Source of the DNA: Thermodesulfobacteriota bacterium
GTDB lineage: Bacteria; Desulfobacterota; UBA8473
Assembly (NCBI GenBank): GCA_040757775.1
Contig: JBFLWQ010000026.1
Location: forward strand, 1 to 38,935
DNA length: 38,935 bases
Reading direction: 5' to 3'
A program made the position numbers and the translations under genes. The notes beneath the pieces are model-generated. The model saw only the letters and a program-made list of their open reading frames with translations. It was not told the DNA's origin and ran no database searches. This document shows positions 2,532 to 31,112 of the stretch, piece by piece. The first letter of the stretch is position 1. Each line of letters begins with the position of its first letter.

Positions 2532-2550
2532 TATTATACCGCGCTGTTAG

Positions 2551-2572
2551 CGGGACGGTTCTCAAATATATT
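2551..2572 (+). repeat. Flanking repeat R, copy 1
   Basis: These 22 bases (CGGGACGGTTCTCAAAT onward) are identical to 3472-3493 and have a diverged inverted copy near 7711-7740. The repeat begins 19 bp after the YafQ stop. With repeat L it brackets the antitoxin/YafQ module. Confidence 0.7.
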
Positions 2573-2582
2573 ATGTAATATA

Positions 2583-2639
2583 AATAGTTAGAAGATAATT
2601 ATTGGGGTTAGGCTACTTACGCTAGCACGTCTAACTATT
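2583..2639. repeat. Inverted repeat in the gap after YafQ
   Basis: AATAGTTAGA (2583-2592) is a perfect inverted match to TCTAACTATT (2630-2639), enclosing 37 bp that contains GTTAGGC. It may be a terminator-like or recombination structure; there is no U-run. The rest of 2573-2858 holds this structure, the next one, and no coding sequence. Confidence 0.4.
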
Positions 2640-2673
2640 ATTAATTTTTGTTATTCTGTATTCTGCTGTATTC

Positions 2674-2765
2674 TGTCATTCCGTGCTTGATAAGCCTGCC
2701 CCGTACTTGATACAGGGGAATCCAGTCTTTTAGTTTTCTGGATTCCTGCTTTCGCAGGAATGACA
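2674..2765. repeat. Nested palindromic element (GGAATCCAG type)
   Basis: Three nested stems: TGTCATTCC (2674-2682) with GGAATGACA (2757-2765); GGAATCCAG (2717-2725) with CTGGATTCC (2738-2746); and a small hairpin TTCCTGC/GCAGGAA (2743-2749, 2754-2760). This is the familiar dispersed intergenic palindrome found in many anaerobe genomes, where copies read like TGGATTCCTGCTTTCGCAGG. No coding content. Confidence 0.6.
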
Positions 2766-2858
2766 TATGGAAAACATGTAGCAAGCTACAGGGAATTATC
2801 AAGTTAAACTATGAATGAGATATCGAGCCTCATAGAACTATGAGAAAAAAACAATACT

Positions 2859-2926
2859 CAATAAAAACAGTGAGCTACAAAGTGTTCAATTGTTGATTCG
2901 GGAGTTTTTCTATAGGCTCATTAGGC
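2859..2926 (+). repeat. Flanking repeat U, copy 2 (upstream of hicBA-2)
   Basis: Ungapped match to 1281-1348 at about 56 of 68 positions. It ends 36 bp before the second hicB start. See copy 1 for the interpretation. Confidence 0.75.
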
Positions 2927-2961
2927 TAAAACCAATCTTTACTATCAGGGAGGATTAAGCA

Positions 2962-3201
2962 ATGTTTACAACATACACAGCGAAATATACAAAGATTGAT
3001 TCCGGATACATGGGACAATTAGTTGAATGGCCTGAGATAGTTACTGAAGGCAAAGATATTGAGGAATGCCGATATATGTTAAGAGACGCTCTTAACGAAA
3101 TGATCCTGGCATACCATCAGCAAGGAAAAGAAATTCCCATAGGTAGCTCTTTAATTGAGCAGGTTCCGGTCGAGGTTGACAGTGTCCATCAAACGGCGTG
3201 A
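2962..3201 (+). CDS. hicB: HicB-like antitoxin, second module
   Basis: A 79-residue HicB-family protein: the core reads YTAKYTKIDSGYMGQLVEWP, then EIVTEGKDIEECRYMLRDAL, which is the usual strand-turn-strand-helix order (Y-x-G-x-x-x-E-W-P-x-x-x-T-x-G-x-x-x-E-E-C). It ends with a short tail and no separate DNA-binding domain. The ATG follows CAGGGAGGATTAAGCA, a strong ribosome site. It shares little sequence with the first HicB beyond the family core. The 3' end overlaps the toxin gene by 20 bp in another frame. Confidence 0.87.
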   Translation: MFTTYTAKYTKIDSGYMGQLVEWPEIVTEGKDIEECRYMLRDALNEMILAYHQQGKEIPIGSSLIEQVPVEVDSVHQTA

Positions 3202-3370
3202 CCTAATTCGGTATTTTGAAGAAAACAGATTTTATCTATTGCGAGAGGGTAGCAATCATTCGATATTTACGAATGGAGCAAAGACAGTTCCTATCAAAAG
3301 GCATAGGAATCTCGATAGAATCACAGCAAATGAATTATGCAAGCAAGCTGGACTGAAGCCAAAATATTAA
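3182..3370 (+). CDS. hicA: HicA-like toxin, second module
   Basis: A 62-residue HicA-family protein starting at GTG 3182, which has CGAGG six bases upstream and gives the normal N-terminus SIKRRDLIRYFEENRFYLLR. The alternative ATG at 3155 lies deeper inside hicB and adds nine residues that do not fit the family. The loop REGSNHSIFTN has the catalytic His (family form G-x-x-H-x-x-[FM]), followed by KTVPIKRHRNLDRITANELCKQAGL, the strand and last helix. Intact by length. The 20-bp overlap with hicB implies translational coupling. Repeat L copy 2 follows 53 bp after the stop. Confidence 0.87.
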   Translation: MSIKRRDLIRYFEENRFYLLREGSNHSIFTNGAKTVPIKRHRNLDRITANELCKQAGLKPKY

Positions 3371-3423
3371 GCTATTCCTATAAATCACAGCCTAACCTTT
3401 AAGGATTGACACGACATGGGGAA

Positions 3424-3493
3424 AATTCGGGAGGCGCAATACTTAATTCTTCAAAATAGTTAGTATATTAACGGGACGGTTCTCAAATATATT
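3424..3493 (+). repeat. Joined flanks L and R with no gene between them
   Basis: Bases 3424-3462 match the first 39 bp of repeat L with about four changes, and 3472-3493 are identical to repeat R at 2551-2572. Only nine bases separate them. At 1864-2572 the same two ends enclose the antitoxin/YafQ genes. This looks like an empty or internally deleted version of the same unit. Confidence 0.7.
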
Positions 3494-7552: not shown

Positions 7553-7574
7553 AATGCCATCTATCTATGATCGT

Positions 7575-7649
7575 AAATCGTAAGTCGTGAGTCGTAAATA
7601 AAATAAATAAAAGGTATAACACCTATTCACGATTCACGATTTACGACTT
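7575..7649. repeat. Imperfect inverted repeat of TCGTAA/TCGTGA units after EF-G
   Basis: The left arm 7575-7599 and the right arm 7625-7649 are complementary at about 21 of 25 positions, with the differences all purine transitions on one strand. Each arm is itself a tandem run of the 7-mer TCGTRAR. It starts 22 bp after the EF-G stop and could form a large hairpin that ends that transcript, although it lacks a clear U-run. Confidence 0.5.
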
Positions 7650-7664
7650 CCGGTTTTTGACGAT

Positions 7665-7696
7665 GTTCGCTCTCAGGGGAGTTCTTCAAAGCGAAC
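7665..7696 (+). repeat. Right-end fragment of the structured repeat family
   Basis: TTCGCTCTCAGGGGAGTTCT followed by TCAAAGC matches the right end of the full copies at 14960-15139 and 24067-24263. Only this end is present. GTTCGCT and AGCGAAC at its borders also pair. Confidence 0.55.
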
Positions 7697-7710: not shown

Positions 7711-7869
7711 TGCATGATAATTTGAAAACCATCCCGTTAATGCCTTCTCCCTTCTTTCTTATGAAAAAATTTAACTTGTTTAAAACCAACGTGCCCTCGT
7801 CTCCCCTTACACTTACAAATATGAGACCATAAACTATTTTGAAGAATTAAATATTGTGTCCCCCGAATT
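7711..7869 (-). repeat. Inverted copy of the L...R flanking unit
   Basis: Read on the minus strand this starts with repeat L (7811-7869, about 57 of 59 identical to 1864-1922), continues with about 70 bp that include a near-perfect 26-bp match to 1223-1248 (TTAAATTTTTTCATAAGAAAG), and ends with a diverged repeat R (around 7711-7740). No ORF lies inside. The segment 7870-7925 shows nothing further. Confidence 0.7.
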
Positions 7870-7925
7870 GCCCCGAATTGCCGACCGTATTCAAGGCATG
7901 GTTCTGATGTTGGATATTGACCATA

Positions 7926-14898: not shown

Positions 14899-14959
14899 AC
14901 TGCAAAGCTAAAACAGGACTATCTTATGCAACCCTCCAGAGAAGGAAAGATATAAGAGC

Positions 14960-15139
14960 GTTGAAAAAACTCCCCTTTTCGCTTCAGCATACATTTTTTG
15001 ACCCATCTAAGCTCGCTCCATTGAAAATTCACAAACTCCCCCTTTGGGCTCAACCATGTGAATTTTCTACATTACGCTCGCCCAGGTGGGTTCCCCAAAA
15101 AATCTATGAATTCGCTCTCAGGGAACTTCTTCAAAGCTT
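14960..15139 (+). repeat. Structured repeat, copy A
   Basis: An imperfect palindrome with nested stems: outer ATTTTTTGACCCA (14993-15005) with TGGGTTCCCCAAAAAAT (15087-15103); middle GAAAATTCACA (15023-15033) with TGTGAATTTTC (15057-15067), a perfect 11-bp stem; tip CCC/GGG. Its right end is GGAACTTCTTCAAAGCTT. It matches 24067-24263 closely and 20426-20612 more distantly. It reads through in frame into lptE, giving a false 63-residue extension. The 60 bp before it (14899-14959) hold nothing recognisable. Confidence 0.85.
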
Positions 15140-15149
15140 TAGGCAGGTT

Positions 15150-15671
15150 ATGCAAAGGCTTTGTATATACAGCGTATTAATTGCAATATTGATAATATCC
15201 TTCTCTGCATGTGGATACCATTTTACCGGAAAAAGAGGAACGGTAACCCGGGATGTCAAGACAATAGCCGTTCCATTCTTTGCCAATAAGACTTTTGAAC
15301 CTGGGATTGAAAGCCTTTTTACAGATGCCCTTATCGAAGAGTTTTTAAAAAGGGGGAATGTGGATGTTTCAAAAGGAGACAACCCTGATGCAACTGTAAT
15401 CGGAACAATCAAATCGTTTAAAGAGTCTCCCGTATCTTTTGACAGAAACGACAGGACATTGGAATACAGGGCAACCGTCACGTTGGATATATCCCTGAAG
15501 AGAAACAATGATGGGATGATCATATGGAAATCCTCAGATCTCTCAGGTTACCATGAGTATACAGTTTCATCAAACACAGCCACTACCTATAACAATAAGA
15601 TAGGGGCAATAAAAAAGATAGCAGAAGATATGGCAGAGGAGATCCACAATATGATCTTCGAAGATTTTTAG
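15150..15671 (+). CDS. lptE: LPS-assembly lipoprotein LptE
   Basis: 173 residues from the ATG at 15150. The signal peptide (MQRLCIYSVLIAILIISFSA) ends at a lipobox SFSAC followed directly by GYHF, the hallmark of LptE (C-G-Y-x-[FL]). The body reads VKTIAVPFFANKTFEPGIES, then FTDALIEEFLKRGNVDV, TVIGTIKSFKESPVSF and YRATVTLDISLK, the usual order for the family. LptE plugs the LptD barrel and completes LPS export to the outer membrane. An upstream TTG (14961) gives a longer frame, but those residues come from repeat copy A and would abolish the signal peptide. LptE next to holA after leuS is a common order in Gram-negatives. Confidence 0.93.
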   Translation: MQRLCIYSVLIAILIISFSACGYHFTGKRGTVTRDVKTIAVPFFANKTFEPGIESLFTDALIEEFLKRGNVDVSKGDNPDATVIGTIKSFKESPVSFDRNDRTLEYRATVTLDISLKRNNDGMIIWKSSDLSGYHEYTVSSNTATTYNNKIGAIKKIAEDMAEEIHNMIFEDF

Positions 15672-15686
15672 CACATCCAAACTATT

Positions 15687-16694
15687 ATGCTTCCAACCAT
15701 AACCCCACATGAACTCACCAGACATCTGGAAAAAGAAGAAGTCCTCCCAGTCTATTATCTTTATGGTGATGAAACATACCTGATTGAAGAGGCTATCAGA
15801 AGTATCGAAGAAAGAATTGTCCTCTCCGGTTTTAAAGACTTCAATTACGAAATATTTTATGGCAGTGAAACTGGAGCACCGGAGATCATTAATGCTGCCC
15901 AGACTATGCCGGTAATATCAGAAAAGAGGCTTATTGTTGTCAAAGATGCTAATCAATTATCAGCAAAAGATTTGGAGCAGCTTACATCCTATATCTCTGA
16001 TCCGTCTCCTTTTGCATGTCTGGTTTTCATTGGTGAAAAGGTAAATCCTAAAGCGAAGTTCTTCATTAATCTTTCCAGGTTTGGCACTATTGCCCAATTA
16101 AACCATCCCAAAGATAGAGAATTACCCTATTGGATTCAAAGATTGGCTAACAGGTTCTGTAAGAAGATCAGTAAAGATGCAATAGCTTTTTTGATAGAGT
16201 TAGTCGGCAATAACCTCCAGCAGATATACAATGAAACAGAAAAGGTCTCTATATTTATAGGGGAAAAAAAGACAATAGAAGTAGAAGATCTGGAGGCAGT
16301 GGTTACGAATCTTAAGGTAGAAAGTATTTTTACTCTGATAGACTCCGTGGGAAATAAGGATAGAGAAAAAGCGTTAAATATACTCATGAAGATTCTGGCT
16401 TCAGGGGAAGATCACTTGAAGATTCTGGGGATGATAATACGTCAATTTCGTCTAATATTAAAGGCAAAGGAGATGCTGCAGAAGGGTTTAACACCTCCTG
16501 ATGTAGGTGAGAGATTGGGGATCAGGAAATTTTTCCTCAAAGGATTCTTCAAGCAGGCAGATCAATTTTCCTTTGATGAATTGAAGAGGGCATTTGATCA
16601 TTTTCTCAGTACCGATCTGGCTCTTAAATCCAGCAGAGTTGCCAAGAGATTGATATTGGAAAGGTTGATACTGGATCTTACAAAAGTAGAATGA
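15687..16694 (+). CDS. holA: DNA polymerase III delta subunit
   Basis: 335 residues. HolA is the clamp-loader subunit that opens the beta clamp. The N-terminal domain is typical: EVLPVYYLYGDETYLIEEAI (residues about 17-36), followed by the RLIVVKDAN strand, the LVFIGEKVNPKAKFF segment and the collar helices (LKILGMIIRQFRLILKAKEM). The end (LKSSRVAKRLILERLILDL) is also family-typical. The length is normal. It lies 15 bp after lptE, so it is likely in the same transcript. The ATG at 15687 has no strong ribosome site. The 98 bp that follow hold no gene. Confidence 0.95.
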   Translation: MLPTITPHELTRHLEKEEVLPVYYLYGDETYLIEEAIRSIEERIVLSGFKDFNYEIFYGSETGAPEIINAAQTMPVISEKRLIVVKDANQLSAKDLEQLTSYISDPSPFACLVFIGEKVNPKAKFFINLSRFGTIAQLNHPKDRELPYWIQRLANRFCKKISKDAIAFLIELVGNNLQQIYNETEKVSIFIGEKKTIEVEDLEAVVTNLKVESIFTLIDSVGNKDREKALNILMKILASGEDHLKILGMIIRQFRLILKAKEMLQKGLTPPDVGERLGIRKFFLKGFFKQADQFSFDELKRAFDHFLSTDLALKSSRVAKRLILERLILDLTKVE

Positions 16695-16792
16695 TTTTTT
16701 TTATTTGACTTATCTGACGAGGTTGGTTTAAATAAGATAAAAGACACTGGGTATTAACTTGTATTTGATACTGTTGCGGGAGGATGTTGAAT

Positions 16793-17299
16793 ATGTATGA
16801 GGAAAAAGAAGAGAGGTTTACAAAAGAGGAGATTAAGAAAGGGGTAGAGGATTTTCTGAAGTATGTAGGGTATACTCTCCTGGAACCGAAGTACATCGGG
16901 TTTGCCCTGCCTGATATCCATGTGAAGAGAGAAGAAGGTACTGAGAAACACGAAATAATCGGGGTGATAAAGAGAGATATTAGCGAGGCAATAGAGGGAT
17001 TTAAAGAACTTGCTGCTGCCAGGTGTGTTTTGAAAGATAAGGTAGATTATGCCTTAATACTTCCGCCGGTGAGCGAGTATTTTTTTCTTGCATTCCTCAT
17101 CAGAGAGGAAGAATGGTGGTTTACAGTTAAAGACCACTCTTTTATGATGTGGCTGGTTAACCCTGAAAGGGAGAAAGTTGACTGCCTTGTGGGCTGGCCT
17201 AAAGATAAAAAGTTTGGCGATTACTTCAGTATGACCAGCAGTGCCGATGGGATAATTGGCCAGGAAGCGTCAAAGAAGATGATAGAAGAGGAATTTTGA
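16793..17299 (+). CDS. Hypothetical acidic protein
   Basis: 168 residues, not recognised. The ATG at 16793 has GGGAGG nine bases upstream; ATG 16784 overlaps that site and is less likely. The first 25 residues are charged (EEKEERFTKEEIKKGVEDFL). The middle has LPDIHVKREEGTEKHEIIGV followed by IKRDI, a strand-turn-strand that faintly recalls nuclease-fold cores (P-D ... E-x-x-x-x-x-K), but the spacing is not standard, so I make no claim. A hydrophobic strand DYALILPPVSEYFFLAFLI follows, then a Trp-rich part. No signal peptide or membrane segment. It lies 38 bp before the radical SAM gene and is probably cotranscribed with it. Confidence 0.7.
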   Translation: MYEEKEERFTKEEIKKGVEDFLKYVGYTLLEPKYIGFALPDIHVKREEGTEKHEIIGVIKRDISEAIEGFKELAAARCVLKDKVDYALILPPVSEYFFLAFLIREEEWWFTVKDHSFMMWLVNPEREKVDCLVGWPKDKKFGDYFSMTSSADGIIGQEASKKMIEEEF

Positions 17300-17337
17300 G
17301 GAACCCCCAGGAAATCCTGTCAGTGGTGGTATAGAAA

Positions 17338-18441
17338 ATGCTGATTCATAATAGTAAACTTGCCGAACTTTCCTTTGAAATGGGTCCCATACGCCCACCA
17401 AGTGAAGGTGGAAGCTATTCCTTGCTGATAAGGGTTACGAGGAATTGCCCCTGGAATCACTGTGCCTTTTGCTATGGTAGACCATACAATCACGAGAAAT
17501 TCAAGAAGCGGTCCGTAGATGATGTTAAAGCCGATATTGATATGGTGAGTGCCATCTGTGACGAGATAAAGAAGCTGTCCCGGAATTTGGGCTATGCTGG
17601 TGATATAAACAATGCAGTAGGTGCCGTCCTTATAAGAAGTATGCCCCAGCTAAACAACAATCACAGTTTTGTCAATGTATTTAACTGGCTGTATTCCGAG
17701 GCAAGGACAGTGTTTTTGCAGGATGCTGATTCCCCTGTAATTCCCACTCCCCAATTGGTTGAAATTATCGTATATTTAAAGGAGAAGTTTTCTACCCTGA
17801 ACAGGATAACCTCTTATGCCAGGGCGAAGACCATTTTTAAAAAGAAACCGGAGGAGCTAGAACAACTGGGTAAAGCAGGTCTGTCGAGATTGCATATAGG
17901 ATTGGAGACAGGAGACGATGAATTGTTATGGAAGATCAAGAAAGGGGTAACGGCAGAGGAACATATTATTGCAGGAAAAAAGGTTGTTGAAGCCGATATA
18001 GAGCTTTCAGAATATATAATGCCTGGACTGGGTGGAAGGGCAATGTCTAAACAGCATGCTGTGAATACTGCAGGGGTATTAAACGAGATAAATCCTGATT
18101 TCATACGATCAAGACCCTTTACCCCTTTGCCTGGGACACCCATGCTGGATGAATACGAAAAGAATAAATTGGAGCTTCTTTCTCCCCATGAGATTCTGAA
18201 AGAGATGAAAATAATGGTAGAGGGGTTAGATGTAACCAGCAGGATTTGCTTCGACCACTTCAGGAATCCCGCTTATCGGACAGGGACCGGAGGTCTTATC
18301 CATTTATTAAAACAGGACTATGATGGTTATAAACTCCCTGAGGAAAAAGGAGCTGTCCTGGATATAATCGAAGAGGGTTTAGGCATCAGTGAAGATAGTT
18401 TTTTACAACCAGAGTATTTTATTCGTCTGGGAAGCCTGTAA
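17338..18441 (+). CDS. Radical SAM protein
   Basis: 367 residues. The iron-sulfur cluster motif near residues 36-46 is NCPWNHCAFC, i.e. C-x4-C-x2-C rather than the usual C-x3-C-x2-C; the surrounding sequence (LLIRVTRNCPWNHCAFCYG) is otherwise that of the HemN/Elp3-like radical SAM group. Further group signals are the strand ARTVFLQDADSPV, LSRLHIGLETGDDELLWKIKKG, the GLGG motif in IMPGLGGRAM and RSRPFTPLPGTPM. The C-terminus has no extra cluster-binding cysteine motif and no B12 domain. The substrate is unknown. It follows the hypothetical gene by 38 bp and precedes an acyl-CoA dehydrogenase by 65 bp, so a link to acid metabolism is possible but unproven. Confidence 0.9.
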   Translation: MLIHNSKLAELSFEMGPIRPPSEGGSYSLLIRVTRNCPWNHCAFCYGRPYNHEKFKKRSVDDVKADIDMVSAICDEIKKLSRNLGYAGDINNAVGAVLIRSMPQLNNNHSFVNVFNWLYSEARTVFLQDADSPVIPTPQLVEIIVYLKEKFSTLNRITSYARAKTIFKKKPEELEQLGKAGLSRLHIGLETGDDELLWKIKKGVTAEEHIIAGKKVVEADIELSEYIMPGLGGRAMSKQHAVNTAGVLNEINPDFIRSRPFTPLPGTPMLDEYEKNKLELLSPHEILKEMKIMVEGLDVTSRICFDHFRNPAYRTGTGGLIHLLKQDYDGYKLPEEKGAVLDIIEEGLGISEDSFLQPEYFIRLGSL

Positions 18442-18506
18442 AACCTTAACTCCATACCATCGTAGAGAGAATAGAGACCATGGAAAAACCATAAGGAGGT
18501 TAGAAG

Positions 18507-20369
18507 ATGGGAAATCTATTAGTCGACGAAAGAGACGTAGAGTTTGTATTGTACGAACAGCTATGTGTCGAGGATCTGTGTAAGACCGAAAGATATAAGG
18601 ATTTTACAAAACAGGACTTTGATATGGTTATTGAGGAGGCAAGGAAACTGGCGGTAAATGTGCTTTTGCCTACAAGAGAAAAAGGAGACAGGGAAGGTTG
18701 CAGATATGAAGATGGCAAGGTAACGGTACCCGAATGTTTCCATGAGGCATTCAGGCTCTATAAAGAGGGGGGGTGGATTACCCCTACAGAGGATCCTGAG
18801 ATAGGCGGGCAGGGGTTGCCTTTCACCATATTTGCGCCGATAGAAGAACACGTTAGCGCAGCAAATGGTGCACTTGGAGGGTATGCAATGCTTACCCATG
18901 GAGCTGCCAAGCTGATAGAGATCTATGGTACCGAAGAGCAGAAGAAGAAATACATGAACAGGATGTATTCCGGTGAATGGACAGGTACCATGTGCCTTAC
19001 TGAACCAGGTGCGGGAAGCGATGTGGGCGCTACCAAGACAGTTGCAAAAAAGAACGAGGATGGCACGTATAGTATAACGGGCACCAAATCCTTTATCACG
19101 GCAGGGGAACACGATCTGGCGGAAAACATAATACATCCTGTTCTCGCCAGGATTCAGGGGGCACCTCCTGGAACAGGAGGGATATCCCTGTTTTTGATTC
19201 CAAAGATCAGGGTTAATGAAGATGGGAGCCTTGGTGAAGGCAATGATGTATTTTGCAGCGGTATAGAACATAAGCTTGGGATTAACGGTTCAGCAACGAC
19301 TACCCTGAATTTTGGAGATAATGGCAGATGTGTCGGTGAACTTCTGGGCGGAGAGAACCAGGGCATGAAGATCATGTTCCACATGATGAACGAAGCCAGG
19401 CTGAGTGTGGGCCTTCAATCTCTTGGACAGGCAAGCTCTGCATATCTCAATGCCGTTGCCTATGCAAAAGAGAGGCTTCAGGGGGCCAGTATTATGAGTA
19501 TGCAGGACCCCAACGCACCTCAGGTTACTATAATCAATCATCCGGATGTCCGAAGGATGCTTCTGTGGATGAAGAGTTATGTAGAAGGCATGAGGGCGTT
19601 CGCATACTATATCGCCTATTGTGAGGATAAGGAGGTTACAGCAACAGATGAGGAGGAAAGGGAGAAATATGCGGATTACATAGCCCTGTTCACCCCTGTA
19701 TGCAAGGCATTCTTCAGTGATATGTCCTTTTATATAATAAAGGAGGCCATCCAGGTGTACGGTGGATATGGGTACTGTTCCGAATACCCGGTAGAGCAAC
19801 TCCTCAGGGACAATAAGATTGCCTCTCTCTACGAAGGAACAAATGGTATTCAGGCACTGGATCTCGTGGGCAGAAAGATGGGGATGAAAAAAGGCGGCGT
19901 CTTGATGAATTTCTTGACTGACATGAATAATTTTATTGAAGCGAACAGGTCAAACGAGACACTCAAGGGGTGTATAGAGGGGTTTGAAAAGGCAAAGAAT
20001 TCACTGGCAGAAGTCAGCATGCACTTTGGTCAGATTGCCAGGGGACCGGATTTCATCATACCCATTATCAACGCGTACCCATATCTGGAAGTCTTTGGCA
20101 TGGTTGCCCTTGGATGGATGCTCCTCTGGCAGGCAACTATAGCAGAAAAGAAACTCAGGGAGATTATGGCAAAGGAAGGAACTTCGGACCAGAAGATTAT
20201 AAAAAAACTCATATCAGACAACAAAGATGCCGCCTTTTATAGCGGCAAGATTGCTGCTGCCAGGTTCTACGCCAATACGGTTCTTCCTGTGGTGATCAGT
20301 AAGGTCAGGGCGATAAAATCGGGGGATAAGAGCGTAGTCGAGATAGCTGAGGAGTCGTTTGCATCGTAG
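18507..20369 (+). CDS. Long-form acyl-CoA dehydrogenase
   Basis: 620 residues, FAD enzyme oxidising an acyl-CoA to the enoyl-CoA. N-terminal helical domain with EDPEIGGQGLPFTIF, the flavin-binding strand MCLTEPGAGSDVGATKT, and the catalytic Glu443 in LYEGTNGIQALDLVGRK. A C-terminal extension of about 150 residues (from about 460 on) marks the long subgroup that includes DmdC and several FadE-like enzymes, which act on unusual or branched acyl-CoA. The ATG has the perfect site AAGGAGGTTAGAAG. A hairpin overlaps the stop codon. It stands before the BcrC/BcrB-like pair on the same strand, so a role in a dearomatising or acid-oxidising route is plausible; its actual substrate cannot be told. Confidence 0.94.
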   Translation: MGNLLVDERDVEFVLYEQLCVEDLCKTERYKDFTKQDFDMVIEEARKLAVNVLLPTREKGDREGCRYEDGKVTVPECFHEAFRLYKEGGWITPTEDPEIGGQGLPFTIFAPIEEHVSAANGALGGYAMLTHGAAKLIEIYGTEEQKKKYMNRMYSGEWTGTMCLTEPGAGSDVGATKTVAKKNEDGTYSITGTKSFITAGEHDLAENIIHPVLARIQGAPPGTGGISLFLIPKIRVNEDGSLGEGNDVFCSGIEHKLGINGSATTTLNFGDNGRCVGELLGGENQGMKIMFHMMNEARLSVGLQSLGQASSAYLNAVAYAKERLQGASIMSMQDPNAPQVTIINHPDVRRMLLWMKSYVEGMRAFAYYIAYCEDKEVTATDEEEREKYADYIALFTPVCKAFFSDMSFYIIKEAIQVYGGYGYCSEYPVEQLLRDNKIASLYEGTNGIQALDLVGRKMGMKKGGVLMNFLTDMNNFIEANRSNETLKGCIEGFEKAKNSLAEVSMHFGQIARGPDFIIPIINAYPYLEVFGMVALGWMLLWQATIAEKKLREIMAKEGTSDQKIIKKLISDNKDAAFYSGKIAAARFYANTVLPVVISKVRAIKSGDKSVVEIAEESFAS

Positions 20370-20393
20370 TGGCGGGTTTTAAACCTGCCACTA
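20367..20393 (+). terminator. Hairpin overlapping the acyl-CoA dehydrogenase stop
   Basis: TAGTGGCGGGTTT pairs with AAACCTGCCACTA around one base, with a single G-U-type mismatch. The stem includes the TAG stop. It is stable but lacks a U-run, so termination is likely rather than certain. Confidence 0.5.
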
Positions 20394-20425
20394 CTCTATG
20401 GGGTTAATTATTAATTATTAATGGC

Positions 20426-20612
20426 CTGTTGCCTGAATCCCTTTTCGCTTTGTCTAAAACGTTTTTTGATAAATCTAAGGCTTGCTTCAGGCGATTTCAA
20501 AACTCGCCCTTCGGGCTCAAACAGTTGAAATCGCTTATCTTACGCTTCGCCAAGATTTATTAGCAAAAAACGTTTTTATGACCGCTCAAAGGAATTTTTG
20601 TTTGGGCAACAG
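20426..20612 (+). repeat. Structured repeat, copy C
   Basis: Same family as copies A and B but with different stem sequences that still pair: ends CTGTTGCC / GGGCAACAG; outer AAACGTTTTTTGATAAATCT (20457-20476) with AGATTTATTAGCAAAAAACG (20553-20572 and on); middle GCGATTTCAA (20491-20500) with TTGAAATCGC (20525-20534); tip GCCCTTCGGGC (20506-20516). Shared non-stem blocks include CCTTTTCGCTT, TTTTTTGA, ATCTAAG and GGGCTCAA. It occupies the gap before the BcrC-like gene. The segment 20394-20425 is AT-rich and empty. Confidence 0.8.
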
Positions 20613-20634
20613 CCCCTTAAGAAAGGACTGAACC

Positions 20635-21741
20635 ATGATGATTAAGGATTTTCAAGAACGATACGCAAAACGTCACGAGCTAGCGAGAGAGTGGAAGAAA
20701 GATGGCAAAAAGATTTTCGGTTATTTCTGTGGTTATGCACCGGAAGAGTTAATAGATGCTGCCGGCATTATACCTGTCAGGATACTGGGGTCTCTGGACA
20801 AGGTTAGCCTGGCGGATTCACATCTCCAGAGCTTCATATGTGCATTTGCCAGAAGCTGCCTGGATCAGGGTTTGAAAGGTACTTATGACTATCTGGATGG
20901 AATGGTAACCTCTAAGACATGTGATATTATGAGGAATATGCCAGGAATCTGGTCAAGGAATATTGAGGTTCCTTTTGTTGGTTATATTGGTGCGCCAGCA
21001 AAGAGGACCAAAGCAGCCAGAGAATGCCTTATAGAAGAGTATAAAATTTTACGGTCAAGGTTAGATGAGTTTATCGGCAAACAGATAGATGACGATTCTA
21101 TAAATCGTTCTATAGAGACATATAACGAAAGCCGGAAGCTGCTCAAGGAACTTTATGAGATAAGGGGAGAAGATAATCCCCCACTCTCCGGCAGCGATTT
21201 CTACCATGTTGTCAGAGCCGGTTTTGTAACACCGAAAGAGGAATACAATAAAATGCTTTCCTCTCTCAAGAGTGAAATGACCCCTTCCAAATCTTCCAGG
21301 GATGGGAAGGTACGTTTTCTGGTTTCTGGTTCAACCTTCGAGGATGTGAATATGCTTAAAATGATAGAAGATGCAGGTGGAAGCATTGTTGCCGATGACC
21401 TTTGCATTGGCAGCCGTTATTTCTGGGACCTTGTGGAGCCTGCTTCTGACCCTGTAAGGTCTCTGGCAGACCGTTACCAGATGAGAATAGCCTGCCCCTG
21501 CAAACATCCATCCGATGAGAGGATGGAAAGGATACTGGAAGAGGTCAAGAAACACCGGGTACAGGGAGTAATCTCTATCGTACAGAAATACTGTGATACC
21601 CATTTGTTCGAATATCCATATATGAGGGATATTCTACAGAAAAACGGCATACCCTTATTGTACTTGGAAACAGAAGACAGATTGGGTGAAGAGGGACAAT
21701 TCAAAACCAGGGTTCAAGCATTTATCGAGATGTTGAAGTAG
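20635..21741 (+). CDS. BcrC / 2-hydroxyacyl-CoA dehydratase-like subunit
   Basis: 368 residues, HgdB/BcrC-type half of a 4Fe-4S enzyme (benzoyl-CoA reductase or 2-hydroxyacyl-CoA dehydratase). Family markers: GKKIFGYFCGYAPEELIDAA with PVRILG at the start, the cysteine stretches FICAFARSCLDQG and TSKTCDIMRN in the first half, ADDLCIGSRYFWD (about 258-270), and QGVISIVQKYCDTHLFEYP near the end. These Cys would hold the cluster. The class needs an ATP-dependent activator (BcrA/D or HgdC); none is in this window. The ATG at 20635 follows AAGAAAGGACTGAACC; ATG 20638 is an alternative. The partner subunit follows by 63 bp. Confidence 0.87.
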   Translation: MMIKDFQERYAKRHELAREWKKDGKKIFGYFCGYAPEELIDAAGIIPVRILGSLDKVSLADSHLQSFICAFARSCLDQGLKGTYDYLDGMVTSKTCDIMRNMPGIWSRNIEVPFVGYIGAPAKRTKAARECLIEEYKILRSRLDEFIGKQIDDDSINRSIETYNESRKLLKELYEIRGEDNPPLSGSDFYHVVRAGFVTPKEEYNKMLSSLKSEMTPSKSSRDGKVRFLVSGSTFEDVNMLKMIEDAGGSIVADDLCIGSRYFWDLVEPASDPVRSLADRYQMRIACPCKHPSDERMERILEEVKKHRVQGVISIVQKYCDTHLFEYPYMRDILQKNGIPLLYLETEDRLGEEGQFKTRVQAFIEMLK

Positions 21742-21804
21742 GTATTTAACTAACCAGATACGGGGTAATCTCTTATAACCTTTTAAAGAAGAAAGGATTA
21801 TAAA

Positions 21805-23034
21805 ATGAGCGATAAAAAACCTGAAAAAAAGAAGAGGCTGAGGACAGCTGAAAAATTGGGTAAAATTATGGCAGATTACTATGCGGAATCCGCTATGGTA
21901 AAAGCACAGAAGAAGCCTGTGGCGTGGCTTTCGTCTGTGGCACCTGTAGAAGTATGCTATACGATGGATGTTTTTCCTGTCTATCCTGAGAACTATGGTA
22001 CAATGTGTGCGGCAAGGAAATTATCGGCAGAATTCTGTGCTGCAGCAGAAGCAAAAGGATTTTCCACTGACCTTTGCAGCTACGCGCTCAACAATCTGGG
22101 CTCAATTTACCTGGATAAAGGTCCATTTATGGGAAAGGGGCTTCCAGAGCCTGATCTGCTGATTGCCACAGAGCATGCCTGTTTGTCGATGGCCAAGTGG
22201 TGGGAGGAGTTAAGCAGATATTTCAATGTTCCATTATATATTGTTGATGCATCTCTTCCAGTAGGTGAAGACCTCTCTCCTCATCATATAAATTATTTTG
22301 CGGAGCAGCTGAGAGAACTGATGGGATTTGTGGAAGAACACACCGGTAATAAGTTCGACATGGACAAATTCAAAGAAGTGCTTGGATATTCAGATGAAGC
22401 AAGCAGGCTGTTTCTAGAAATAGGGGGGCTGAGGAAGACAGTGCCTTCACCAATAAGCCCCATTGAAATCTTTACCAACATGTTCCCTATAGTAACCCTT
22501 GCTGGAAAAAAGGAAGCTGTTGAATTTTATAATGAGTTATATGATGAGATAAGCGAGTTTGCAAGGAGGAAAGAGGCGGCTGTCCCCACTGAGAAATACC
22601 GTCTGTTATGGGACTTGTTCCCTATTTGGTACAATCTTCCTCTGTTTAATTATATAGAGGGAAAAGGAGGGGTTGTTGTGGCAGATGTCTATGCAACCAC
22701 CTTCGGTGGCAGAATCGATATTGACAGACCGTTTGAAGGACTTGCCGAGAGATACGTCGGTAATCCATTGCTGTCATACAGTGTTCAACAAACAACAGAA
22801 TTATACAAGCATATGATAAAAGAATATCACGTGGATGGTGTTGTCTTCCATTCCAATCGAAGCTGTCGTATGGCATCTATGGGACAATACGATGTTAAGC
22901 AGGGAATTTATGAGGACCTTGGAGTTCCGGGTGCCATCTTCGAGTCCGATTTTGTCGATCCAAGAAGCTATTCTGATGAACAGGTTAAAGATGTATTAGA
23001 TTCTTTATTTGAGATTCTGGAATCCAGGGGATAA
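21805..23034 (+). CDS. BcrB / 2-hydroxyacyl-CoA dehydratase-like subunit
   Basis: 409 residues, the second half of the pair. After a Lys-rich start come PVAWLSSVAPVEVCYTMDVF with PVYPENYG, then the Cys-bearing LCSYALNNLGS and ATEHACLSMAKWWEEL, and near the end VVFHSNRSCRMASMGQYD with GVPGAIFESDFVDPRSYSD. This order is typical of BcrB/HadB subunits, which share the double-cubane or 4Fe-4S cluster with the other subunit. Electron source and activator are not encoded nearby. The ATG at 21805 has AGAAAGGATTATAAA upstream. It ends the plus-strand run; the next gene points the other way, 60 bp away. Confidence 0.88.
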   Translation: MSDKKPEKKKRLRTAEKLGKIMADYYAESAMVKAQKKPVAWLSSVAPVEVCYTMDVFPVYPENYGTMCAARKLSAEFCAAAEAKGFSTDLCSYALNNLGSIYLDKGPFMGKGLPEPDLLIATEHACLSMAKWWEELSRYFNVPLYIVDASLPVGEDLSPHHINYFAEQLRELMGFVEEHTGNKFDMDKFKEVLGYSDEASRLFLEIGGLRKTVPSPISPIEIFTNMFPIVTLAGKKEAVEFYNELYDEISEFARRKEAAVPTEKYRLLWDLFPIWYNLPLFNYIEGKGGVVVADVYATTFGGRIDIDRPFEGLAERYVGNPLLSYSVQQTTELYKHMIKEYHVDGVVFHSNRSCRMASMGQYDVKQGIYEDLGVPGAIFESDFVDPRSYSDEQVKDVLDSLFEILESRG

Positions 23035-23094
23035 GCAGCTTCCGCCTCTATCTATGCATCCTCTATCTAGGTACTGTCTTTGGATATTACCATG

Positions 23095-24030
23095 TTATAG
23101 ATGCTCTTGAGGTATTGCCTTTCTCCACCTCTGATGTATCCACCACCACTGATCCGGGTATTTCCGAATATATGATTCTACAATCTTTGATAATCTGGAC
23201 AGATTTGTAAATATGTCTTTATCCTTATCGCCTGTTAACTCCAGGTCTACAGGAGGATCTATTACTATTCTGTGCCTGTTTCCATCCTCTCTAAGGATAA
23301 AGGCAGGGAGGATAGAAGCCTTTGTCCTCATTGCCATAACCACAGGCCCTTTGAAGGTAGGAACCATACGTCCAAAGAAGTCTACATAGATGCCACCCGA
23401 GATTACATTCAAATCTGTCAGAAGAAAGAGTATCCTGTTTTCTTTTAGGCATTTCAGGGATCGTTCTACGCAGATTCTGGGTGGTTTATCGGGAATCATC
23501 CCGACCCCTGTCATTCTCGCCAGATTGTCAAGGTATCGGGCAAATCCTTCATTCCGGGGGTATCTGGTAATGGCGGATAGAGGATATCCCAGTTGGGCAA
23601 GCCTGATTACTAAAAACGAAAAATTCCCAAAATGAGCACTGAGAATAAGGACCCCTCTGCCTAATCTTAATGCCTCATCCAGGTTTTCTCTTCCTTCAAT
23701 GCTTATCATCTTATTCAAATATCCATCATGGAACTTGGGATAGGCAAGCAGTTCTACTCCGCCCTTCCCTATATTTCCAATGGTGGACTTGTATATTTCG
23801 AGAATTTCTCCTTCACTTTTTTCTTCTCCTAAGGCAAGTCTGAGATTACTCATTGTGATACTTTTTCGTCTTTTTAAAAAGAAAAAGGCTAATCTGCTCG
23901 TCTTTTCACCAAAGATATAAAGATACTTCAGGGGCAGAACCCTCAGAACAAATAGAAATGCCAGCATAAGATACCAGCCTATTTTACGAAAAATCATTTT
24001 TTTTATCTTCACAATCCTTTTTTCTGCCAT
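23095..24030 (-). CDS. LpxL/HtrB-like acyltransferase with altered catalytic motif
   Basis: 311 residues, family of lipid A late acyltransferases at the inner membrane. An N-terminal hydrophobic helix (about 18-32) anchors it. The family order is present: SNLRLALGE, GRGVLILSAHFGNFSFL, a basic ITRYPRN segment, FFGRMVPTFKGPVVMAMRT and a C-terminal PDQWWWIHQRWR. The catalytic HX4D/E motif reads H133-F-G-N-F-S138, so Ser replaces the acidic residue (the codon TCG is clear). It may act with another residue, have a different donor or acceptor, or be inactive. It is the last gene of the LPS operon on the minus strand; 256 bp separate it from the DapA-like gene, and repeat copy B fills that gap. Confidence 0.85.
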   Translation of the reverse strand: MAEKRIVKIKKMIFRKIGWYLMLAFLFVLRVLPLKYLYIFGEKTSRLAFFFLKRRKSITMSNLRLALGEEKSEGEILEIYKSTIGNIGKGGVELLAYPKFHDGYLNKMISIEGRENLDEALRLGRGVLILSAHFGNFSFLVIRLAQLGYPLSAITRYPRNEGFARYLDNLARMTGVGMIPDKPPRICVERSLKCLKENRILFLLTDLNVISGGIYVDFFGRMVPTFKGPVVMAMRTKASILPAFILREDGNRHRIVIDPPVDLELTGDKDKDIFTNLSRLSKIVESYIRKYPDQWWWIHQRWRKAIPQEHL

Positions 24031-24066
24031 CTGTTGCCTCAGTTTTTACAGGTCTCTCTATATGAG

Positions 24067-24263
24067 AACTTTGAAGAAGTACTCCTTTTCACTTCAGCAT
24101 ACATTTTTTGACCCATCTAAGCTTGCTCCATTAAAAATTCACAAACTCCCCGCCTCTGGCGGGTCAAACATGTGAATTTTCTACATTCCACTCGCTAAGA
24201 AGGGTTCCCCAAAATCCCGATAAAATCGGGATGAATTCGCTGTCAGGGGACTTCTTCAAAGTT
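24067..24263 (+). repeat. Structured repeat, copy B, with perfect terminal inverted repeats
   Basis: AACTTTGAAGAAGT (24067-24080) is the exact inverse of ACTTCTTCAAAGTT (24250-24263). Inside are the stem AAAATTCACA (24134-24143) with TGTGAATTTT (24171-24180), the tip CCCGCC-TCT-GGCGGG (24149-24163), and an extra hairpin ATCCCGAT/ATCGGGAT near 24213-24232 that copy A lacks. It fills the gap between the DapA-like and LpxL-like genes. Confidence 0.88.
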
Positions 24264-24286
24264 CTTGATAGGTTGGGTATAGGTCT

Positions 24287-25237
24287 CTATATGAGTTTGT
24301 ATTCTGCCAGTAAACTGCAAATCTTTGATTCCTGCTCCGGTGTGGCAGCAGGGGTACCTTCAACTACTACACTGCTTCCAATCTTGCCCATCAATTTTAA
24401 TGCAAGCTTGATTATCGCTGGAGGGTTTGGCATGTATGCCTCGTGAAGGGACTTTAGCATCTGTCCTGCCTTCCAGAGGTCGGTATAATATATTGGGTCG
24501 TCCTTGAGCATCTCTTTTGGATTTATAGAGGATTCTGTTATATCTTTCCATTCCCTGGGCAATATATTAGCCCCCTTCGCCACTACTCCATCCAAACTGG
24601 GATTACCCAGGAAGTCGAGCTCATTACCGTCATATATTCTGAAATCTCTTCTGTCTCTTACAGCTCTGGCGTAATTCATCGCCCTCCTGAGTTCCCCTAC
24701 GTGCATGATACCAACTATCTGTTCATTCTTAGATAGTTTCTTTAATACGTTTGTTCTTATATTCTTTCTCTTCAGGTGCGCTTTGAGTTCTATAATCAAA
24801 TAAGGATTGTTATACAGGACGAATGGAAGCGGAGTGAGTCTGCCAAATTCAACATAGAGGCGCGGCAGGTCCTTATTGCTATGGTACCATAAAGGACAAT
24901 CGAAAAGAAATATATCCCCACTGTAATCAAGCTCTTCTTTAATTCTCTCCACATGGGTAATATTTTCTCCTGTCAGGTCCTCTGTGCCTCCGGTGATGTT
25001 CAGGAAAAGGGGTATCCTTCCATTAACCATCTCCATCCCCGTCTTTATCAGTTCTACTCTCTTATGGTTACTGAGGACAAACCCTTCTCCTATATCTCCT
25101 GCTCCGATAAGGATCGCATGGAGACTCTCTATTGTATAATCCAGCAAGCTTTTAATGCCAGGTTTGTCTATATTACAATCATTATTCAGGGGTGTCACCA
25201 TGGCACCAATCAGCCCCCTGGGTGGTAAGGTAGGCAT
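24287..25237 (-). CDS. DapA/NAL-superfamily protein lacking the Schiff-base lysine
   Basis: 316 residues from the ATG at 25237, which follows AAAGGGGAATAGC; the longer frame to 25378 runs through a repeat and into the kdsD 3' end, so it is rejected. The fold is clear: GLIGAMVTPLNND, a GxxGE region as GDIGEGF (GTTGE in DapA), VNGRIPLFLNITGG, and LYNNP with Tyr142. The lysine strand that should read VGIKE reads VGIMH: Met178 replaces the catalytic Lys, and the Tyr-to-Lys spacing is about 8 residues longer. So it is unlikely to be DHDPS or NAL in the classical sense. It lies in the Kdo operon, between kdsD and the LpxL-like gene, and may serve the LPS sugar route or be structural. Confidence 0.85.
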   Translation of the reverse strand: MPTLPPRGLIGAMVTPLNNDCNIDKPGIKSLLDYTIESLHAILIGAGDIGEGFVLSNHKRVELIKTGMEMVNGRIPLFLNITGGTEDLTGENITHVERIKEELDYSGDIFLFDCPLWYHSNKDLPRLYVEFGRLTPLPFVLYNNPYLIIELKAHLKRKNIRTNVLKKLSKNEQIVGIMHVGELRRAMNYARAVRDRRDFRIYDGNELDFLGNPSLDGVVAKGANILPREWKDITESSINPKEMLKDDPIYYTDLWKAGQMLKSLHEAYMPNPPAIIKLALKLMGKIGSSVVVEGTPAATPEQESKICSLLAEYKLI

Positions 25238-25253
25238 TCTGCTATTCCCCTTT

Positions 25254-25306
25254 GATGGCTTTGTAAAAAGTTCATCTGTCCGCCTCTGGCGGATTACTTT
25301 GCCATC
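25254..25306 (+). repeat. Short palindromic repeat D, copy 1
   Basis: Begins GATGGCTTTGTAAAAAG and ends GCCATC, with a central hairpin TCCGCC-TCT-GGCGGA. The first 44 bp match the minus strand of 31031-31074 at about 38 positions. It lies between kdsD and the DapA-like gene and creates the false N-terminal extension of the latter. Confidence 0.65.
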
Positions 25307-31030: not shown

Positions 31031-31074
31031 GCAATCCGCTTCAGGCGGACAGATGGACTTTTTACGAAGCCATC
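31031..31074 (-). repeat. Short palindromic repeat D, copy 2
   Basis: On the minus strand it begins GATGGCTTCGTAAAAAGT and carries TCCGC...GCGGA. It matches 25254-25297 at about 38 of 44 positions. It creates a false N-terminal extension of the ferredoxin frame. Confidence 0.65.
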
Positions 31075-31112
31075 AATATATAAACCAACGGAAGGATATT
31101 AATAAAGGTATT

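Follow-up and report, generated by a model that had tools for sequence, protein, structure and literature searches.

Hairpin elements in the window

The window, by which we mean the whole stretch of 38,935 nucleotides analysed here, contains three copies of one repeated element, designated A, B and C (Table 1). Copy A sits within the gene order leuS, GNA1162-like, hypothetical, lptE, holA, and its right end contains the apparent start codon of lptE (15150-15671, AGGCAGGTT-ATG, with the ATG at 15150). Copy A may thus supply both the start codon and the ribosome-binding site of this outer-membrane assembly gene. Further repeat families lie on both sides of EF-G (1220-1924, 2547-3493 and 7754-7872), including an inverted 64-bp pair, 5.9 kb apart (1861-1924 / 7809-7872, 95%).

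Table 1. Elements of the hairpin family in the window, with their cores, target site duplications and ends.
Feature	Position	Strand	Remarks
Copy A, F1 hairpin MITE	14954..15162	+	F1-type ends: left AAGAGCGTTG (consensus GAGAGCTTTG), right outer ..GGCAGGTTATGCAAAGGCTTT (consensus GGCAGGTTGTGCAAAGGTCTC); target duplication degraded
Copy A, conserved folded core	14975..15122	+	covariance model R1, 139 bits
Copy B, F3 hairpin MITE	20422..20616	+	ends TGGCCTGTTGCC / GGCAACAGCCCC
Copy B, left target site duplication	20418..20421	.	TTAA; F3 4-bp duplications
Copy B, right target site duplication	20617..20620	.	TTAA; F3 4-bp duplications
Copy B, conserved folded core	20441..20592	+	model R1, 173 bits
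Copy C, F1 hairpin MITE	24064..24287	+	F1-type ends: left GAGAACTTTG, inner right CAAAGTTCTT, outer right TATAGGTCTC
Copy C, left target site duplication	24059..24063	.	TATAT; F1 5-bp duplications
Copy C, right target site duplication	24288..24292	.	TATAT; F1 5-bp duplications
Copy C, conserved folded core	24085..24236	+	model R1, 81 bits; 3' arm with additional palindrome TCCCGATAAAATCGGGA
F1 right end (7666-7692) fused to unrelated palindromic core	7566..7692	+	core ATCGTAAATCGTAAGTCG..CGATTTACGACTT

The three copies had been picked out in an earlier note on this DNA as a structured repeat family with a common block order and with paired arms that differ and still match. The family is real: every block and arm quoted there is found in the three copies, and the block order and the pairing of the arms stand. 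The letters B and C had been exchanged relative to the note's own coordinates, which changes the details. The arms said to be shared by A and B, GAAAATTCACA/TGTGAATTTTC, are common to the copies at 14960 and 24067, the latter with AAAAATTCACA and so one mismatched pair; the odd one out, with different arms that nonetheless match, is the copy at 20426 (GCGATTTCAA/TTGAAATCGC). Likewise the perfect 14-bp terminal inverted repeat exists (AACTTTGAAGAAGT / ACTTCTTCAAAGTT) and belongs to the copy at 24067, at 24067-24080 / 24250-24263, while in the copy at 20426 the perfect terminal match is limited to 8 bp (CTGTTGCC). The note had also allowed that its divergent copy might be unrelated to the other two, and this copy proved to be related to them. 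The element ends used here are defined by the target duplications and lie slightly outside those of the note.

Subfamilies, ends and hybrids

In the whole genome (3.1 Mb, 50 contigs), blastn gave 33 matches to copy A, 20 to copy B and 43 to an F2 copy, many of them partial. Collecting the copies with the covariance model, as the note had advised, yielded 26 full cores beside dozens of partial copies. The elements are about 190-225 bp long, have no coding capacity and carry no transposase gene. Sorted by terminal sequence they fall into three subfamilies, each with its own set of terminal inverted repeats: F1 (represented by copies A and C) extends from GAGAGCTTTGAAGAAGT to GGCAGGTTGTGCAAAGGTCTC, F2 (none of the three window copies) from GTTCATCCTGAAAAAT to its near inverse, and F3 (copy B) from CGGGCTGTTGCCC to its near inverse. 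What the earlier note missed is that one core is common to subfamilies with unrelated ends.

Ends and core are also found in other combinations. Internal deletion has often reduced a copy to its ends (L053, L061-L063), two hybrids (L035 and L036) have an F1 inner stem within F2 outer stems, and a third (L203) joins F2, the core and an F1 end. Some F1 and F2 copies have an unrelated palindrome in place of the core, among them the chimera at 7566-7692 of the window, whose arrangement was found in six loci. In four copies of the same genome (L064, L066, L067 and L075) the palindrome TCCGCCAAAGGCGGA replaces one arm of the inner stem, so the inner stem is not always required.

Smaller palindromes show a pattern of their own. 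Either TCCGCCTNNGGCGGA or TCCGCCAAAGGCGGA replaces stretches of the hairpin arms in L033, L034, L036, L064, L066, L067 and L075, sometimes breaking the inner stem, and these palindromes look as if they were spreading by replacement; similar ones occur in the window at 25252-25295 and 31033-31076. Two F1 copies (L034 and L054) have another hairpin, GCCTGCCTGTGCGATG..AGACAGGTAT, inserted at the identical position of the arm, and the tips of L109 and L130 contain hairpins of similar type (CTGCCTGTGC).

Fold and covariation

Copies A, B and C all fold more stably than their shuffled sequences (z -3.4, -6.9 and -7.0, respectively), with 0 of 200 shuffles as good in each case. A MAFFT alignment of 50 copies showed that the blocks align across 170 columns, about 45 of them invariant, and RNAalifold predicted 30 pairs from this alignment, with compensatory changes in 15. 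The covariation check proposed in the earlier note was run with a null in which the inferred substitutions are redistributed on the tree, and the signal survives it: 7 of the 30 pairs are significant at E<0.05, and the top two column pairs overall are pairs of the structure. Recombination blurs the tree used for these covariation and substitution counts. When 100 copies were aligned to the model, 96.2% of cells paired, compared with 43-52% when the partner columns were slid, and double changes occurred in 30/30 pairs (572 cells, versus at most 131 when slid), although this alignment was fitted to the model and leans the model's way.

The stems vary freely, both arms changing together. In distant members they are entirely different, while the fold and the loops are kept over a range of 37% to 68% GC. 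Between the variable stems lie fixed unpaired motifs: CGCT opposite CGCTC, and GCTCGCTTC opposite CCGCTTCG; the tip is flanked by unpaired AAACTC..CTCAAACA, and TCTA and AAGA hardly vary. Unpaired positions as a class change no more slowly than paired ones (a mean of 9.6 versus 8.6 changes over all columns): it is the motifs that are conserved, and not each unpaired base.

Strand signature and gene context

Selection on one RNA strand predicts that G-U pairs are tolerated far more often than A-C mismatches, and that compensation proceeds through G-U and hence mostly by transitions. Neither pattern was seen. Changes placed on the tree led to G-U in 40 cases and to A-C in 35 (p=0.64), showing no strand preference in a test that has no calibrated control, the tRNA control having too few pairs to serve; an alignment not fitted to the model gave the same trend with fewer events (11 versus 8). 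The 168 double changes comprised 81 transitions and 87 transversions, with no sign of a G-U route, and the share of transitions among them equals the background share of 0.46-0.49 in single changes elsewhere in the element. Because the changes are strand-symmetric and bypass G-U, they point away from an RNA of one strand and towards a hairpin of DNA or arms that have been copied from one another through template switching.

These results bear directly on one alternative, in which the core works in sense orientation within host transcripts as a structured RNA (an mRNA stabiliser, processing site or attenuator) that was spread by MITE ends. Some of the evidence favors it: where both flanking genes are codirectional, the element is sense to them 45 times and antisense 20 times (p=0.003, from rough ORF calls made by a simple script), copy A lies inside the leuS..lptE-holA order with its right end overlapping the lptE start codon, and many copies have the stable tip GCCC-UUCG-GGC on the sense strand. 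The orientation bias counts against a role in DNA only, which does not predict it; it could reflect a role as RNA, or harm done by one orientation in transcripts. Against the RNA alternative stand the lack of any excess of G-U over A-C or of transitions among double changes, the 20 codirectional copies that are antisense, and Rfam 15, in which the element had no match at E<=1 in six representative loci and the window matched no family at the gathering score. We regard an RNA function of the core as unlikely. With respect to replication strands, the copies listed for the complete chromosome G299 are evenly divided (30 versus 30 in a hand count with origin and terminus roughly placed).

A second alternative, which we consider improbable to a similar degree, dispenses with selection on the fold: the elements would be ordinary decaying MITEs, long quasi-palindromes kept paired by template-switch correction during replication. 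Strand-symmetric compensation at the background transition share is in its favor, as is the time course of change, since single mismatches stay at 4-8% per pair at every distance and double changes become more frequent as copies diverge, the pattern that short-lived mismatches would produce. Template switching is, moreover, documented as a generator of compensatory changes (PMC8794818). Nevertheless, template switching alone leaves the persistence of the unpaired motifs unexplained: correction by itself would erase them or let them drift, and they have stayed unpaired and near invariant from 37 to 68% GC. Nor does this alternative account for the recurrence of the same core with unrelated ends. 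The covariation may reflect selection alone or, in part, correction by template switching.

Target duplications and the IS5 link

The earlier note proposed either selection for the fold or a mobile palindromic element, and both halves hold, the first through covariation beyond the tree-based null, the second through the observations that follow. Target site duplications, which the note had suggested looking for, are present with a length characteristic of each subfamily. F3 has duplications of 4 bp, exact in 10 of 13 copies (mean 2.7 and maximum 6 in 300 sets of shuffled flanks). For F2 they are 6 bp long, mostly TANNTA, and exact in 7/12 (shuffle mean 1.2, maximum 5). The 5-bp duplications of F1 are exact in 5 of 26 copies (shuffle mean 0.24, maximum 2) and have no more than one mismatch in 11 of 26 (shuffle mean 1.28, maximum 5). 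In addition, one F2 insertion of the genome under study is absent from the same site in a congener, where the flanks are 88-90% identical and the empty site is not clean.

A candidate source of mobility was found for F2. In sister genomes (congeners), a multicopy insertion sequence has F2-type ends and TAAGTA/TAATTA flanks, and its ORF matches the NCBIfam model transpos_IS5_1 at 2e-79 and also Pfam DUF772; the copy read from end to end has a truncated ORF, which scores 267.6 bits against the NCBIfam curated cut-off of 275. The readable IS5-type copy showed no hairpin core, which means that F2 is more than an internally deleted form of this insertion sequence. The IS5 link is shown only for F2 ends, and F2, at least, could plausibly be moved by a transposase supplied in trans. 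For F1 and F3, no autonomous element was found in about 1.08 Mb of loci, where matching ends enclose only other MITE copies and ordinary genes. Two candidates were set aside: in G137, F2 ends 1.8 kb apart surround ordinary genes (uppS- and cdsA-like by eye) and are two MITE remnants, and the one PF01609 match in the genome under study gave no match between its ends and a subfamily.

Two loci have unusual arrangements. At L163:4258-5766, the 5' and 3' ends of F1, properly inverted, surround a 432-aa transporter-like ORF (AmpG-like by eye), possibly a passenger-carrying unit or possibly two remnants. At L249:1556-1713 and L197:6087-6244, different F2 copies occupy the same intergenic gap of two species in opposite orientation, and this gap is a possible insertion hot spot.

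Distribution

A pattern made from the shared blocks matched at least 120 loci in a genome collection; among the matches listed, nearly all are titled Deltaproteobacteria, Desulfobacterales or Proteobacteria, and some Nitrospirae. With model R1, the core was detected in 32 of the 297 genomes, and in 24 of the 198 genera, sampled from the host phylum, with 72, 76, 41 and 15 copies in other carriers. The fold thus spans genera and probably phyla, and many of its carriers are bacteria of sulfate-reducer type. No match to the element was obtained in plasmid and phage collections by blastn or in viral contigs by pattern search, and a literature search covering few subscription journals returned no description of this core.

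Discussion

Taken together, these observations make it probable that the elements are non-autonomous MITE-type transposons whose conserved core is a long interrupted hairpin set within subfamily-specific ends. They have the main features of the MITE class (short multicopy sequences, inverted repeats, duplications of fixed length, and a presence/absence difference), and one hairpin core is carried by several transposon chassis. Convergence of unrelated MITEs on similar hairpins would fit the different terminal repeats and duplication lengths of the subfamilies, but this is hardly credible given the F1/F2 hybrids and the shared order and sequence of core blocks that align over 170 columns.

The entity preserved would be a DNA hairpin, extruded as a cruciform or formed as a foldback when the DNA is single-stranded, with the unpaired motifs as candidate contacts for a protein of the host or of the element. 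Template switching may re-copy one arm from the other and so help to keep the arms complementary, and the core may pass between chassis by recombination inside the conserved blocks, as the hybrid copies suggest. The core would then be a selfish module that aids the transposition or survival of the element. We offer only as a tentative proposal the more specific view that it is one independent selfish DNA-hairpin module which at least two phyla have conserved in structure and not in sequence, which travels on several unrelated insertion-sequence chassis, and which a protein of the host or of the element recognises in its folded form through the fixed unpaired motifs.

The closest known systems each share part of this picture. 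According to a review, the 235-bp Chunjie MITE of Geobacter uraniireducens is, like the present elements, a multicopy, non-coding sequence of comparable length that has both terminal and direct repeats; many of its copies are truncated, and one lies in an operon (PMC10969869). To the extent of that review's account, and by description only, Chunjie differs in having no core common to other terminal-repeat families (PMC10969869). Among IS5-derived MITEs the likeness is confined to F2, whose ends and target preference match the IS5-type insertion sequence of the sister genomes, whereas F1 and F3 differ both in their ends and in the length of their duplications. The Tn3-derived TIMEs (PMC4133298) are likewise non-autonomous and combine termini with different internal modules, but what they share is the 38-bp Tn3 repeats, whereas the present elements share the core and differ in the termini. 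Bacterial stem-loop families, compared by description from a survey (PMC2267715), likewise consist of intergenic repeats for which a common fold is predicted, while the present fold extends across genera and probably phyla. REP/REPIN sequences, which bear a GTAG or CGTC tag, are also palindromic, intergenic and multicopy; since REPs are palindromes of 20-40 bp (PMC3733652), we rejected this identity on length for an element of about 200 bp bounded by target duplications of 4-6 bp. Several families of Geobacter multicopy sequences have been described in one paper.

The case gives a warning that a functional RNA cannot be established by covariation alone. It would also open two questions to testing: does selection act on the folded DNA of a transposon as such, and what share of the compensatory change in hairpins is due to template switching? 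The interior of a MITE is usually taken as filler left by a dead transposon. Here the interior is conserved and the ends change, and strong covariation comes without the strand signature expected of RNA. As a mobile hairpin the element is newly recognised and uncommonly well conserved, and its family is a MITE-type group in which such a conserved interior is unusual.
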